A stretch of 64,000 nt of DNA from Planctomycetia bacterium (GTDB taxonomy: Bacteria > Planctomycetota > Planctomycetia > Pirellulales > Thermoguttaceae), in NCBI GenBank assembly GCA_030539035.1, contig JAUNSU010000001.1:6700-70699 (forward strand). The letters are read 5' to 3'. Under the pieces are notes generated by a model that worked only from the letters and a program-made list of their open reading frames with translations, did no database searches and was not told the origin of the DNA. A program made the translations under genes and the position numbers. Below, one piece after another: positions 25,888 through 63,700 of the stretch (positions are counted from its first letter, which is position 1; the number at the start of each line of letters is the position of its first letter).

Positions 25888-25990
25888 AAACGGCAAGCGC
25901 CGGAGGGCCTCCCCGAAAAACGTGAATTCTTTATAAACGATGATCACCCATTAAACCGGGGAAGCGGAAAAAACGTTGCTTTTTGAATAC

Positions 25991-26090
25991 GGTTGGAATT
26001 CGAACGCTGGGACGGTGCCCATCTTGGGCACCCGGCGGCGGAGCCGCCGTAGGGACAGGATGCAGGCTGCATCACTCGCTAATCACTAAT
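25991..26090. repeat. Dispersed intergenic repeat (family B), with hairpins
   Basis: A GC-rich block containing GGTGCCCATCTTGGGCACC (perfect hairpin), CGGCGGCGGAGCCGCCG and TAATCACTAAT. On the opposite strand the same order of motifs recurs at 61969-62018 and 62307-62368 (…CGCCGGGTG…CACCCTCCCA[AG]CGCTCGGATT…). It lies between the convergent GT2 and regulator genes; the rest of 25888-26129 holds no gene. Confidence 0.7.
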
Positions 26091-49966: not shown

Positions 49967-50821
49967 ATGAAAAAAAGAACGAAAAACTGGATCATGGATG
50001 TTCCCTCCGATCAATGGGCAAAGATCGCCGATCTTATGTCGGAGGGACTTCTTTTTTGCGATAAGTATTTTCGGATCGTTTATGGAAATACGTCCGCACA
50101 GAATTTATTTTCCCGATTGGGCAAAAAGAAGATCCTCGGTTCTCCCCTGTTTTCTCTCGATCCCGTTTTTTTTTCTTCCTTTCAAATGGCCGACGGATCC
50201 CCCTTGCGGATTCATGAAGAACCGGATCCCGATCCGTTGGAGGCAACGGGCTTTTTTTTATCGCCCGTCAAAAAAGGAATTCGTTCTTTCCTCTGCGGAT
50301 TAAAGATCGTTCGCCTGGAAGAGGATCCTTTCTTTTACGCTGTTCTTGTTCATGAAGAGCCCGACATTGATCTTACAACGGAACTTCCGACCCGACGGTC
50401 GCTTGATCCTTATTATCGATTTGTCTGCTCTTCCGAAAAACGAAAAAAAGGATCCCTGCTCTTTTGCGATCTGGAGCATTTTAAAAGGATCAATGATTCC
50501 TACGGACATCTCAAAGGCGATTCTGTTCTTCGGGAAACCGCACGATCTCTTCGGACGTTTTTCCCTTATCCGGCTGTTCCTTTCCGATTCGGCGGAGATG
50601 AATTTGTGATCGTCGCTCCCGATTCAACGGAAAAGGAATTAGCGCAAATCATAAACGATCTGAACGAATATCTTAAAGACAAACGGTTCAAATACCTGCG
50701 GTCTTCGGAAAGGATCCGCCTGAACTTCGGAATCTCTTCGCTTATTTTCGGCGAAGATCTTAATCTCGCGCTTGATCGGGCAGATCAGGATTTTTACCGC
50801 AAGAAAAATCCTGATCAATAA
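49967..50821 (+). CDS. Diguanylate-cyclase (GGDEF) protein with PAS-like N-terminus
   Basis: Residues about 15-130 have the look of a PAS sensory domain (MSEGLLFCDKYFRIVYGNTSAQNLF). The GGDEF domain follows, with the metal Asp in FCDLEHFKRIND (Asp168) and an intact FGGDEF (208-213), so synthesis of cyclic di-GMP is plausible. No RxxD inhibitory site precedes GGDEF (the residues there are FPYPAVPFRF), so product inhibition through the I-site is not expected. Soluble, 284 aa, no transmembrane segment. The last 12 codons lie inside a perfect 13-bp inverted repeat. It is last in the pyrF-apgM-galE run. Confidence 0.9.
   Translation: MKKRTKNWIMDVPSDQWAKIADLMSEGLLFCDKYFRIVYGNTSAQNLFSRLGKKKILGSPLFSLDPVFFSSFQMADGSPLRIHEEPDPDPLEATGFFLSPVKKGIRSFLCGLKIVRLEEDPFFYAVLVHEEPDIDLTTELPTRRSLDPYYRFVCSSEKRKKGSLLFCDLEHFKRINDSYGHLKGDSVLRETARSLRTFFPYPAVPFRFGGDEFVIVAPDSTEKELAQIINDLNEYLKDKRFKYLRSSERIRLNFGISSLIFGEDLNLALDRADQDFYRKKNPDQ
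50783..50816 (+). terminator. Perfect 13-bp hairpin inside the 3' end of the GGDEF gene
   Basis: GATCAGGATTTTT (50783-50795) and AAAAATCCTGATC (50804-50816) pair perfectly around an 8-nt loop, just before the stop codon at 50819-50821. It may work as a transcription terminator embedded in coding sequence. Confidence 0.45.
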
Positions 50822-50905
50822 AGATCAGCACTTTCCCCGGAACGTTAAGTTGCTAAATGGGTTAAACAGCGCATATTTTAGTTCGTTTAATATTTTCGGG
50901 CTCTC

Positions 50906-51277
50906 TTTGCACTGCCCTTACAGGGCGCTGCTTTTTTGTGGTCCGTTGACCCGGGGGGCCGCACAAACATTTCATGTTTATGCTCTGCCCCGGGCTGGCG
51001 GCGAGGCGCCGCTCCCAGTACGCGCTGCCGCGCGATAGGCAAATAATCGCTTCCTTCATTGACGGTATCCCCCTTCGGGGCACCGGTTTTCGGCCATTCC
51101 AACTGGGTTAAGTAATACGGTCTTTCGGCCAAACACCAATGATCTGTTTTCGATATTGTACCCGAATCCTGCGGGCTGAAAGCCCAATGCCTTCCAGCCC
51201 CGGGCAAGGGAGCGAAGCGACCGGCACCCCGGGTTTGCTTCCCCCATCTCCGCAGCGCCCTGTAAGGGCAGTGCAAA
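50906..51277. mobile_element. 372-bp non-autonomous element with perfect 26-bp terminal inverted repeats
   Basis: Positions 50906-50931 (starting TTTGCACTGCCC) are the exact reverse complement of 51252-51277. Each end is itself a near-palindrome around CCCT/AGGG, like two REP hairpins facing each other. The interior is GC-rich and full of further small hairpins, with no coding signal; its short open frames give CPGLEG/GRCGDGG-type junk peptides. This fits a MITE or REPIN-like unit moved by an enzyme encoded elsewhere. No clear target-site duplication is visible. The flanks 50822-50905 and 51278-51389 hold no gene. Confidence 0.75.
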
Positions 51278-51389
51278 AAATATTGCGATATGCCAGCATC
51301 CATAAGGAAAGTTCCAACCGCATAAAATCGGGGAAAGATCAATAAAGATCAAAACGGTTTGATATAATCCATTTTTCTCTCAGAAAAAA

Positions 51390-54300
51390 TCACTTTTGCA
51401 GCTCAATGATCATTTGAGCGATTGCCGCACGTTTTTGATAAATCGGGCCGGGAACCTTTGTAAAGCTGATCATCGATTTGGTAATCGAATCGAACTGGAA
51501 AAGGGCCTCGATTTTCGATTTTTGATCGGGCGTTAAACGTTTTTCGTTCTTCTTGATCAGATCGGAAAGAATGGTGAGCATTTCATAATCTTCGATTCCT
51601 TCGCGAAGGATCTCCCAGCGAATACTGCAAACCGGCTCTTCAAGAATCGGCTTTCCGTTGTTCAGGCCGGGAACAGCGGCCGCCAAAGGAGGATAAACGA
51701 ATCGCCCGTCCCCGTTGCCCCAATAGGCTTTTGTATTGATTGCCGAGGAACTCACATATCCCATCGGATCAAGATAAGGATTTTGCGGAGATTTTGGAAA
51801 AGCGGAACGGCTCGTCCAGTAATTGGAAGCCCAAACGAGAATTCCTCCGATCTTGCGCTTGTATGTTTGCCAAAGCCAAACGCGCATTTCCGTTCCCGGA
51901 TGATCGATAAAAAGAGTGCAGTACGGCGCTTTGGGACCGGTGCAGACATACCACCAGAACCGTTCCTTTTTCTCCATTCGTTTTTCCGCTTCCGAGGAAG
52001 AAAAATTGGAACTGACAGGACACCATATATCCAGGGACGTTCCTTTCTGATCGAGAATATCGCAGAGTTTACTCCCCGGCTCTTCCGTCAACATACGGGA
52101 GATCTTCGGTCCGTATTTTTTCAGCCGCGCAAAACCATCGGCAACGAATTCATAATCCTTTTCATCCGGTTCATCGAACCAATAAGCGTAAGCGCCTTTT
52201 AAAAGTCCGGCCTTTTCCAATTCCGTCTGAAGTTTATTCAGATAATCGGAGAATAAAAGTTTGTACTCTTTTGTCGATTCATCGAATTTGCCAATTTGCG
52301 GCGGATATCGTTTTTCAAAAGTGCCTCCGCCCATCCCGTGAAGGTGCAAACGGAAGTTCGTGAAATGATATTTATCGAAGACCCTTTTCATTTCCGGAAT
52401 GTAATGGGAAAGATCCAGATCCGCGGCGGGCGGATTCGCAGTCGTGTTCCATTTGACCGAATAAGAATCGAAAGGTGCCGGATCATAAGGACTGATGCGA
52501 TGTTCGCCGAAATTCTTCAGATAGAGTTCGTAAACCGCACGCTGATCTTCTTTTGTCTTGCAATTATGATATTGAACGATTGTTCCGGCGGAAAGGCCGA
52601 ATGCGGTTTCCAGCCGATTGATTTTCGGAAGGGCAAAATCCCATACTTCAAGTTGATAAGGGATTTCCAGCGCAAGTTCTCCCTTGGAATCATTGAGAGA
52701 AACCGATCCGCGATAGATCCCGCTTTGGACCGATTCATCAATGGAAACGGTGATCCAGATCGGGAAATTGCAACCGGCCTGTATGTTCAGGGGCGATCCG
52801 TATCCATCCGATCCTTTTTTCATGGGAACAAGCGCGTCCGGCCAATCGGCAACGAGTCCTTCCGAGTCGGTGGTTCTTTCCACAAAATGATAATACGCGT
52901 ATCTTAACTGGATCTTCGAGGAAGAAATTCGGTTTCCCTTTTCATCGATCAGATCGGATGCTTTTCCCTTTAATCCGACAAGATCTTTTGTGTTTGCATC
53001 TCTTCGGAGAACGATCTGGAAAGATTCGAAATCATTTTTGGGGGCGGCGATTTTGATCGTCTCTTTCGGCATTGATCGGGCCGCTTTGGTTCTTTTCAGA
53101 ATTTTGTTTTCCGGTTCACACCAGAACACAGAGGTCGATCCGCTCTTGCCTTTAAGATCGGGAATTCCCTTTGCGCAGTTGGAGAGAAGAATTGCCGGAA
53201 ATTTGAAGGAAACGGCAAGTGATGTGTCCAGATCGGCCGACAGTTCATATTCCGTAAGATCGGAAGGAACTTTTTGACGAACGATGGCCGTCGATTCCGA
53301 AGGGATCATCGTCTTCACAACAGGAAGCTGCTGAACAGATTGCGCTTTATCCGGGGATCGAACAGAAAAGACCGGAGCCCAACTCAGCGGTTTCTTCGAT
53401 TGATTCTGAACAAAATAGACGAAGTTCATTTCCGGATCAATAAAATAAGGGCCGGTCTTAAAGGTCTTTTCCGTTTGAAGATCCTTGCTCTTCTTTTCCG
53501 CAAAACAGGTCGATCCCTGTCCGGCGTAATTTTTGTCTTTCAGATCCAAAAGAACTTTCATGGAATCTATTTGAAGAGTTGTTTTTCCTTTTTCATCATT
53601 TTGAACAGACATACGAATCCAGAGATCGGAGAGATCCTTCTTTTGCCCGAAAAGAGCAGAATCAATTTTGCAGCAGATCGATCCTTTTTGAGAATTGGAT
53701 CCCAATTCTTTCCAGCTCTTGCCGTCAATGCTTCCTTCAACGATACAGCGTCCGCCGATATAATATCCGACATTGATCTCAACGGATCCGCCGGAAAAGG
53801 GAAGGGCGGCTGCTGCTTCCGGATTGATCGGATTCCCGTTTGCACTCGCATTAGGATCGGCGCTGGATCGCGAAGTCAACCGGATCGGCTGAAGACAAAA
53901 ACGATAAACGACAGATTGATTTTTATATAAACACCATCGGTTTGTATTGAACGAAGCGGTTGAAGAGACGAGCGGACGGGAAAAATTGCCGTCTTCGACC
54001 CGACCGAATCCATTGAAGCGATATTGTCCGTTTATAATGGATTCATTATTGCCAAGAGGAAGATATTGCGGATCACTGGAACCCTTGCTTTCGATAAGCG
54101 TATAAACCGGGTCCACGGGAATCAGTTCCGGCTGATGAAATCGAAAAGATCCGGTTGCATACCAATGCCGCAAAACAAAAGAGGCGCGGTTCATTTCGGA
54201 AGAGGTAAAAAGAACATGCGAAAATTCCTTGAACGTTTTTCCGAAATCCGTTGAGATTGTGTAATCGCGGGAAAGACCGCCCAGCCCCATTGGCAAGGAG

Positions 54301-56823: not shown

Positions 56824-57245
56824 CCGCAGATTTATTTTTTAGTTGGATTTTCGAAAAATTTTTGGTTTGTTCGTTTAGGCTCTTTTTGGAACCACGGATG
56901 AACACGGATAAGCACGGATGGGCCTTTTGGCGGATCTGGGCCAGTTCTGAACCGCGGATTTATTTTTTAGTTGGATTTTCGAAAAATTTTTGGTTTGTTC
57001 GTTTAGGCTCTTTTTGGAACCACGGATGAACACGGATAAGCACGGATGGGCCTTTTGGCGGATCTGGGCCAGTTCTGAACCGCGGATTTATTTTTTAGTT
57101 GGATTTTCGAAAAATTTTTGGTTTGTTCGTTTAGGCTCTTTTGGAACCACAGATGGACACGGATAAGCACGGATGGGCCTTTTGGCGGATCAGGGGTCTG
57201 TTCTGAACCGCGGATTTATTTTTAGTTGGATTAGCCGATCTGCGG
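56824..57245. repeat. 128-bp tandem repeat, three full copies and one partial
   Basis: Copies begin at 56824, 56952, 57080 and 57208, each with CCGC[AG]GATTTATTTTTTAG, an exact period of 128. Copies 1 and 2 are nearly identical and copy 3 has a few changes. The fourth breaks off after about 28 bases and merges with the stop of the DUF1207 gene. Each full unit contains CCACGGATGAACACGGATAA or a close variant, the dispersed CACGGAT word. No coding potential. 56653-56823 holds only the upstream region of typA. Confidence 0.9.
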
Positions 57246-61739: not shown

Positions 61740-62629
61740 CCTGAGGAGTTCCCATTCCGCCCCGCAGATTTATTTTTTTGTTGGTTTAGCCAATAAGCGT
61801 TGCCGGGCGGCCGACCGCAAGCCCGTAATGAAGTGAGCGAAGCGAACGGAATTAGGGAACTTATAATTAGTGATTAGTGAATAGTGGGGGAACAACGTCT
61901 CCGGCGCTTGGTTAATGGGTGATTATCGTTTTTTAGAAATTTTAACCCTTTTACAGAGCGACGGCGTTACCGCCGGGTGTCCGGGACGAACACCCTCCCA
62001 ACGCTCGGATTCCAACCGCACACACAAATCTTTGTTTTTCTCCACTTCCCCGGGTTAATGGGTGATTAACTCTTTTAAAAATTCTACGTTTATCGAGGAG
62101 GGCCCTCTGGTGTTGCCGTTGGGAAAGAGCGGCCGAAAGACCAGCCTGGAACAGGCGGCACCATGCATAACCCCATGCGCAAGCATGGGGTATAGACCTC
62201 GCGCTCCAAGAGCATCGAAGATGCGGCACAATAAAAAAGAGTAAAACAAAAATCCTTGAGAAGAATTCGAATCACAACGTTTTTTAGAGATTTTAACTCT
62301 TCGACCACGGCGGCGTTGCCGCCGGGTGCCCGGAACGAGCACCCTCCCAGCGCTCGGATTCAAACCGTGTTCCGGGAGCCTTGTTTTTCTCGGATTCCCC
62401 GGTCTTCTCAAAAAACATCGCTTTTCAAAAAAAACATCCGTGGTTATCCGTGAATATCCGTGGTTTCAAAAAGGGGATGGGACTCCTGGGACGACAGGAA
62501 CAGCTGTGACAGCTGGGACTATTGAATCTGCGGTTTAAAATCTCAACGCTTTTAGAAAATGAACATCGCTCGGGGTGTCCGGGACGATCGCCCTCCGTAT
62601 GCGGCTGCGCCGCTGATCCCCGCTAAACA
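61740..62629. repeat. Repeat island between the GH2 gene and the envelope-protein gene
   Basis: A gene-free stretch built from dispersed repeats. CGCAGATTTATTTTTTTGTTGG near 61763 is related to the 128-bp tandem unit. 61817-61860 is family C copy 2. ATTAGTGATTAGTG follows near 61869. Family B copies lie at 61969-62018 and 62307-62368, with a partial copy from 62571 into the 3' end of the next gene. The words TTAATGGGTGATTA occur at 61911 and 62056, and the CACGGAT/ATCCGTG cluster is at 62430-62465. Short open frames here lack ribosome-binding sites and coding composition. The 61546-61739 part holds the GH2 promoter. Confidence 0.75.
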
Positions 62630-63700
62630 CTAATCACTAATTCCGCCTTCTTTGGCTTCGATCAGGACAAGGACGTTATAATAAATTGATTTGCCGGAAA
62701 CCATTTTCGAAAGATTGCCCATCAGTGTGTTCTGATTCTGTGGATTTTCAATAAGAAGGGGAATCATTCCGAGATCAAACAGAAAAACAAGATCTTTCGG
62801 AAATGAGATCTTTTCCTTTCTTTCTATATTAAGGATCTGCGGAAGTTCGGCCTCCAGCTGCTGTCGAGGCGCGTTCTTCGTCGGGATCTTCAAATGAAAT
62901 GAAAGCATCTTTTCCACTACCGTCGATTGACAACGGAACGCGATTTCAACCTGTGTCCCGTCCGTCGAAAGAAGCGGAGTCGCCTCAATGCGATATCCTT
63001 CATCAACCGATCCGCTGTCGGCAATGTATCCTATCGGCTGATCTGCGGCGATCTGAATGTCCCTTACAAATTTTTTGGGAGCGCCCGCCAGAACCCAACC
63101 GTATGTTTCTCCGTGCGGAACCTGATTCTTCGCCGTATTTAATTCCAGAAAATCGGATCGTTTGGCCAACTCGGCAACAAAGGTATTCCGGATCTCTTTC
63201 CGAAGCAGCCAACCTTGTATGTCTTTCGATTTGACCGGCCAAGGGCGGATCCATTCGGCAGCTCTGGTTCGCCAGTCCGGTGTTTGCACGAGAAGAATCC
63301 GTATGGAAAAAAACTCGTTCTTCTTTTTCGGATCCATAAAACGGTCAAGAACATTCGATACGTATTGCTGAACCTGCGGCGTGTGATAGACATACAAGCG
63401 ATTCCGATCGGCCGTCAAAACGGAAAAAGGCTCCTGATGCCAAAAATCCGGACCGGTATCCAAAAGGATCCAATTCAATAAAGTCCGCTGCGGATTCGAT
63501 ACGTTCGGATAGTTTTTCGTATAAGAAGATATGTCATAAGAGATCCAGATCTGCCCTTCCTTATTAGGAAGTACGGAAAGACCCTTCTCAAACGGCAGAT
63601 GAACAGGACCGGTAAACGGTTTATTCGCCTGGGCAAAAAGAAAAGGAATCTGTAAAAAGAGCAAAATCGCAATAAAAACGGTTCGTGCTTTTTGTATCAT
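62630..63700 (-). CDS. Exported protein of unknown function, secretin-N-domain-like segment
   Basis: Not assigned to a named family. ATG 63700 gives a signal peptide (MIQKARTVFIAILLFLQIPF, cleavage near FAQA) and a 356-aa protein. AAGGAATAAA in the last codons of fabF supplies the ribosome-binding site. Residues about 95-130 (LYVYHTPQVQQYVSNVLDRF) resemble the N-domain of secretins, where such a helix packs against beta-strands, but no secretin barrel follows. The remainder is mixed alpha/beta with no transmembrane helix. It starts one base after the fabF stop, so it is co-transcribed with fabF. The upstream extension to 63841 lies inside fabF and is not used. Confidence 0.75.
   Translation of the reverse strand: MIQKARTVFIAILLFLQIPFLFAQANKPFTGPVHLPFEKGLSVLPNKEGQIWISYDISSYTKNYPNVSNPQRTLLNWILLDTGPDFWHQEPFSVLTADRNRLYVYHTPQVQQYVSNVLDRFMDPKKKNEFFSIRILLVQTPDWRTRAAEWIRPWPVKSKDIQGWLLRKEIRNTFVAELAKRSDFLELNTAKNQVPHGETYGWVLAGAPKKFVRDIQIAADQPIGYIADSGSVDEGYRIEATPLLSTDGTQVEIAFRCQSTVVEKMLSFHLKIPTKNAPRQQLEAELPQILNIERKEKISFPKDLVFLFDLGMIPLLIENPQNQNTLMGNLSKMVSGKSIYYNVLVLIEAKEGGISD

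Follow-up and report, generated by a model that had tools for sequence, protein, structure and literature searches.

Hairpins of the REP superfamilies GTAG and CGTC are short and extragenic; they carry a conserved 5' tag, often occur as inverted pairs and have variable, compensated stems (PMC3733652). In the REPINs described by Bertels and Rainey an inverted REP pair folds as one large hairpin (PMC3116915). Here we analyzed a 64,000-nt stretch of planctomycete DNA (the window) in which a first-pass annotation had picked out positions 50906-51277 as a 372-bp element with perfect 26-bp terminal inverted repeats. It had proposed a MITE, a REPIN-like unit or a structured RNA. We find that the 26-bp arms are not the ends of a mobile unit, and that the 372 bp are the interior of a 517-bp unit. 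The arms are a REP-like hairpin pair within the reduced remnant of a transposable element whose insertion hit the stop codon of the neighboring gene. The proposal of a MITE therefore holds for the kind of element and fails for its boundaries, since the mobile unit with target duplications spans 50826-51342 and has other, imperfect terminal repeats of ~14 bp. We give a probability of roughly 0.8 to this two-layer account, with a MITE-type derivative of an insertion sequence (IS) outside and a REP/BIME-like composite inside. Below, G000 denotes the genome of the window, G001 and G003 denote genomes of the same genus, G002 is a further genome, and G024 is from another genus.

A repeat search recovered the arms at 50906-50931 and 51252-51277 as exact 26-nt inverted repeats, 100% complementary and with 320 nt between them. 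The window has no occurrence of the core arm pattern besides these two, and 0 of 100 shuffles have one; the exactness of the arms is far beyond chance. Each arm also folds by itself, as first described (GCCCT-TAC-AGGGC), and folding of the 384 nt spanning the whole element is well above that of shuffles (z of about -8 to -9). ORF calling gave no gene within the 372-bp stretch, in agreement with the non-coding interior originally reported.

Two genes converge on the locus: one for a GGDEF protein (plus strand), with its end at 50821, and one for a glycoside hydrolase 123 (GH123)-type protein (minus strand), with its end at 51390. Just outside the 372-bp stretch, 15 bp of sequence (GATCAATAAAGATCA) are directly repeated (50813-50827 and 51337-51351), and this repeat includes a 7-bp target duplication, TAAAGAT, at 50819-50825 and 51343-51349. 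We considered a target duplication of 15 bp and dropped it for one of 7 bp, because with 7 bp the flanks in the window align to the element's own ends; in other copies the duplication is exactly 7 bp. The element delimited in this way, a MITE-type internally deleted IS of 517 bp with a nested REP composite, extends from 50826 to 51342. The sequences flanking the 26-bp arms are repeats themselves: arm R (50826-50905, minus strand), in which the IS transposase gene survives as a remnant of its 3' end, has eight copies in the genome, and arm P (51278-51342), the opposite end of the IS-derived element, has 14. Aligning the P and R arms exposed their shared ends, the imperfect outer terminal repeats with consensus CTGYACTTTCCCCG. 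The left repeat (50826-50840, plus strand) is CAGCACTTTCCCCGG, with consensus CTGYACTTTCCCCGG, and the right repeat (51329-51342, minus strand) reads TTGATCTTTCCCCG on that strand, with consensus CTGTACTTTCCCCG; the window's outer ends have diverged at one position on the left and three on the right.

Duplications of 7 bp abut the element ends in three of the four two-ended copies (TAAAGAT in the window, TGGTTTG in C135 and AAAATTA in C224), while the remaining one, in C180, has no matching duplication. When the ends of two-ended copies were cross-paired, 0 of 12 combinations gave matching duplications, and the chance of the observed matches is about 1e-11 to 1e-12. The search for target-site duplications suggested by the first-pass annotation was thus successful, but they surround the 517-bp unit and not the 26-bp arms. 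The GGDEF gene has its TAA stop (50819-50821) inside the left TAAAGAT, and its reading frame is therefore intact after the insertion. Insertion would have occurred at this stop codon, with the stop retained within the duplication, and an empty site would read GATCAA-TAAAGAT-CAAAACGG once. An empty-site synteny test in G001-G003 found relatives of the GH123-type neighbor, with no GGDEF gene beside them and no empty site.

A candidate for the parent of the outer unit is present in the same genus. Locus L211 of G003 (1012-2541) holds an IS of ~1530 bp, with a frameshifted DDE transposase, whose ends, CTGTACTTTCCCCGG and TGTACTTTCCCCGATTTT, are shared with the terminal inverted repeats of the window element. 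A second IS copy in this genome starts in L207. The G003 transposase matches NCBIfam IS701_3 (NF049999) with 196.6 bits against a cut-off of 170, and Pfam DDE_Tnp_1 at 5e-16. In the window, arm R encodes SPKILNELKYALFNP from the transposase C-terminus, where the G003 transposase reads TPKILNDLKKRLFD; this is a coding remnant, and the element has no intact transposase. The C180 copy encodes 50 residues, of which 28 (56%) are identical to the C-terminus of the G003 transposase. Because the transposase 3' end is still recognizable in one arm, the small element is an internally deleted IS, and the outer unit is a MITE-type internal-deletion derivative; another short derivative of the IS is found in G002. 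The transposase with matching ends that had been proposed as a check exists in an IS of G003. In the assembly of G000 no full-length IS copy turned up, and none was found near the assembled ends. Four contigs (C80, C139, C3 and C239) break off within the element, which is what longer copies left out of the assembly would produce. IS701 elements are described with target duplications of 4 bp. The duplication observed here is 7 bp and not the family-typical 4 bp, and we therefore name the parent IS701-like only; a literature search found nothing on 7-bp duplications by IS701 elements, an absence that is weak evidence. The outer unit would have arisen by internal deletion, as a non-autonomous copy of an IS whose DDE transposase was IS701-like, and the transposase of a full-length copy probably acted in trans on the CTGYACTTTCCCCG ends, leaving the 7-bp target duplication.

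The inner 372 bp are a nested REP/BIME-like composite, in which a spacer separates two A-B-C units of opposite orientation. In the left unit, all on the plus strand, hairpin A (50906-50931; CCC subtype, 5' tag GCACTG) is followed by TTTTTT and is terminator-like, hairpin B (50950-50994) has the stem CCCGGGG / CCCCGGG and the apical cassette GCACAAACATTTCATGTTTATGC, and hairpin C (51063-51086) is of the CCCC-TTC-GGGG type with its tag degraded to GGTAT. This unit is broken between B and C by module F (50999-51062, plus strand), an extra repeat of ~63 bp that is also found in G024 and that lies on the opposite side in locus L114. The central spacer D (51087-51165; TTCCAACTGGGTTAAGTAATACGG...) is common to full-length copies. 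The right unit, on the minus strand, consists of hairpin C (51172-51191), a GGGCT-TTC-AGCCC variant with the tag GCATTG, hairpin B (51198-51233), with the other apical cassette, GGTCGCTTCGCTCCCTTG, and one stem base changed here, and hairpin A (51252-51277), again of the CCC subtype and an inverted copy of the left A. Complete copies free of insertions measure 309-310 bp (L116 and L086). The layout is conserved across the genome: a CCCGGGG B arm follows 75 of 82 readable A ends, with a spacing of 19-22 nt in 74 and C coming next, and a closed B hairpin with one of the two main apical cassettes is present at 59 A ends. In G001 the A-B-C layout is found in 11 of 14 cases, with a spacing of 21-23 nt. 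The unit that spread may be pictured as a tagged REP hairpin A, ~19-22 nt, a CCCGGGG-stem hairpin B with an exchangeable apical cassette, and a tagged REP hairpin C.

The A hairpins are part of a repeat family in intergenic gaps genome-wide in this planctomycete. A blastn search with the whole stretch gave 118 matches in the genome, and an arm search allowing up to three mismatches gave 86, compared to 0 for the reversed control, so that the absence of any other copy, named at the outset as the outcome that would favor a single-copy RNA, can be set aside. About 89 A ends could be read, and ~75 loci are mosaics sharing modules in varied combinations, with sequences outside the arms likewise repeated across loci. 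All but one of 76 A loci are without an overlapping called ORF (simple ORF caller). The stem in most other copies is GCGCT/AGCGC, compared to GCCCT/AGGGC in the window. Elsewhere in the window, 847 bp at 61795-62641, mostly intergenic, consist largely of the same kinds of mosaic modules, and a repeat-rich 400-bp gap at 56824-57223 has recurring GGATTTATTTTTTAGTTGGATTTTCGAAAA units.

Of 173 GCACTG sites, 124 are followed by a perfect 5-bp stem, and there are five main types of stem. The corresponding share is about 0-5% for other hexamers and for GTAG and CGTC, whose sites are hairpin-poor; loci were gathered via the A pattern and the statistic is therefore partly selected, while the C-type hairpins, which are unselected, still show the tag. 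In G001 the tag is GTGCTG (19 of 30). When 26 units of the two species are taken together, pairing holds in 99.1% of stem cells and 42 cells are changed on both sides, a level of compensation reached by 0 of 500 shuffles, and slid controls fail. These compensatory changes support the stems. A literature search did not find the tag GCACTG described, which is weak evidence. The exact hairpin was rejected as a phylum-wide marker, with 73 in its own genome and single copies in 2 of 391 other genomes. In other planctomycete genomes we also noted TTTGCACTGCCCTTACAGGGCG hairpins in quite different composites (L127, 2760-2830; L209, L212, L214, L215 and L217, genome G513); L127 is unrelated to the window's contig apart from the hairpin.

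The subtype of the A hairpins bears on how the two layers fit together. Beside a P arm, 7 of 7 recognized A ends belong to the CCC subtype, whereas elsewhere GCG is found in 64 of 82, and the two ends of a complete copy can differ, as in L116, L086, L115 and L056. Recent activity had been read from the perfection of the inverted repeats, which does not follow, as the identity reflects the CCC subtype of both hairpins. We infer that the identical arms stem from a CCC subtype resident in the MITE lineage rather than from recent movement of the 372 bp, and the composite would have been carried as cargo within the IS-derived element. A different reading is that the 372-bp unit is itself mobile, as a MITE or REPIN bounded by the 26-bp arms, and inserted into an older IS remnant at a single A hairpin. 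Consistent with this, in L103 and L071 a single A hairpin takes the place that the composite has in other copies, and L116 and L086 are free copies outside IS remnants. However, a deletion between the arms across the TGC microhomology also yields a single hairpin, the junction is identical in both single-hairpin copies, and no target duplication was apparent beside the 26-bp arms in the copies inspected by eye. We consider independent movement of the 372 bp unlikely.

The position of the composite between genes raises the alternative that it was selected as a terminator, or as a stabilizer of mRNA 3' ends, between convergent genes, its spread being secondary. Convergent genes surround it here and in 19 of 40 A loci, while of the 22 gaps in the window, unmatched in size, 3 are convergent (genes called with a simple ORF caller), and TTTT lies within 12 nt of 41 of 89 A ends. 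The left A hairpin with its T6 run is terminator-like and, after the insertion, could terminate transcription between the two convergent genes. On the other hand, a T run is present at under half of the A ends and is missing from the right arm here (minus strand), and shuffled sequence of the region is expected to give 1.2 terminator-like matches. Selection for such a role is, in our judgment, rather improbable as the origin of the composite. A structured RNA gene or cis-regulatory RNA, which the strong folding and compensatory changes might suggest, is very improbable given that an Rfam search of the region gave no family at the gathering threshold, tens of copies mix modules freely with no fixed gene context, target duplications surround the window copy, and REP DNA predicts conserved hairpins equally.

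On the two-layer account, a RAYT (HUH Y1 transposase) would have multiplied the REP hairpins, with their single-stranded form as its substrate. The sole intact RAYT-like gene of the genome, and a candidate TIRtron, is L054 (1429-2004, minus strand, contig C156), whose protein scores 73.4 bits for REP_Tyr_transpos, slightly below the cut-off of 80. Module I, present in more than 30 mosaic loci, flanks it on both sides in inverted orientation. As owner of the GCACTG hairpin this gene failed, its flanks being module I with no GCACTG hairpin there. A second Y1 transposase gene (L105, 5678-6587, contig C194) is broken by stops or a frameshift, and was rejected as a flanking partner because the nearest hairpin is separated from it by an unrelated ORF. 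G024 has six RAYT matches and at least 12 matches to module F. Against a RAYT step, A-B-C units are present in G001 and a Y1 transposase was not detected there, in a genome that is only 87% complete. The link between a RAYT and the GCACTG hairpins is one of association and not proof, and may reflect amplification by such an enzyme. A module copy at 25890-26050 of the window (CGCTGGGACGG...GGCGGCGGAGCCGCCG) is of a type that also brackets the RAYT gene.

This one site stacks two unrelated kinds of small repeat, each keeping its own marks, the target duplication outside and the compensated hairpins inside. Like MITEs that are internally deleted ISs, the element shares its ends with a full-length IS, is bounded by target duplications, lacks an intact transposase and occurs in multiple copies, but by length it is mostly a nested REP-type composite. 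The inner hairpins resemble GTAG and CGTC REPs in being short, extragenic and tagged, in forming inverted pairs and in their compensated stems; they differ in their tag, GCACTG (GTGCTG in G001), and in lying within a fixed A-B-C unit. As in REPINs, two inverted REPs form a hairpin, and to that extent the REPIN-like proposal fits the 26-bp arms. However, the composite is 309-372 bp with three hairpins per half, compared to two REPs and a short spacer, and the RAYT-like gene is flanked by module I instead of the same REP. Since the GTAG/CGTC tags and the RAYT flank are both lacking, we do not file the inner layer under those names. L054, like the genes of TIRYT / TIRtrons (PMC3733652), is flanked by inverted repeats that recur in the genome, but these are not the GCACTG hairpins.

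BIMEs of E. coli are likewise extragenic mosaics, with palindromic units in opposite orientations and extra motifs between them, and this mosaic organization is found here. Their sequences differ from those of the inner composite. What sets the composite apart from these BIMEs is the exchangeable apical cassettes in B, which are unusual, and its packaging within an IS derivative. The family has a tag unlike both published ones and comes from a little-studied phylum, and within the genus the tag changes from GCACTG in one species to GTGCTG in another, a difference that could help to probe tag recognition by a RAYT. Overall, we tentatively suggest that the GCACTG/GTGCTG hairpins could be a REP superfamily outside GTAG and CGTC, spread as a fixed three-hairpin A-B-C unit rather than as single REPs, with apical cassettes that swap in the middle hairpin, and able to ride an IS-derived MITE.
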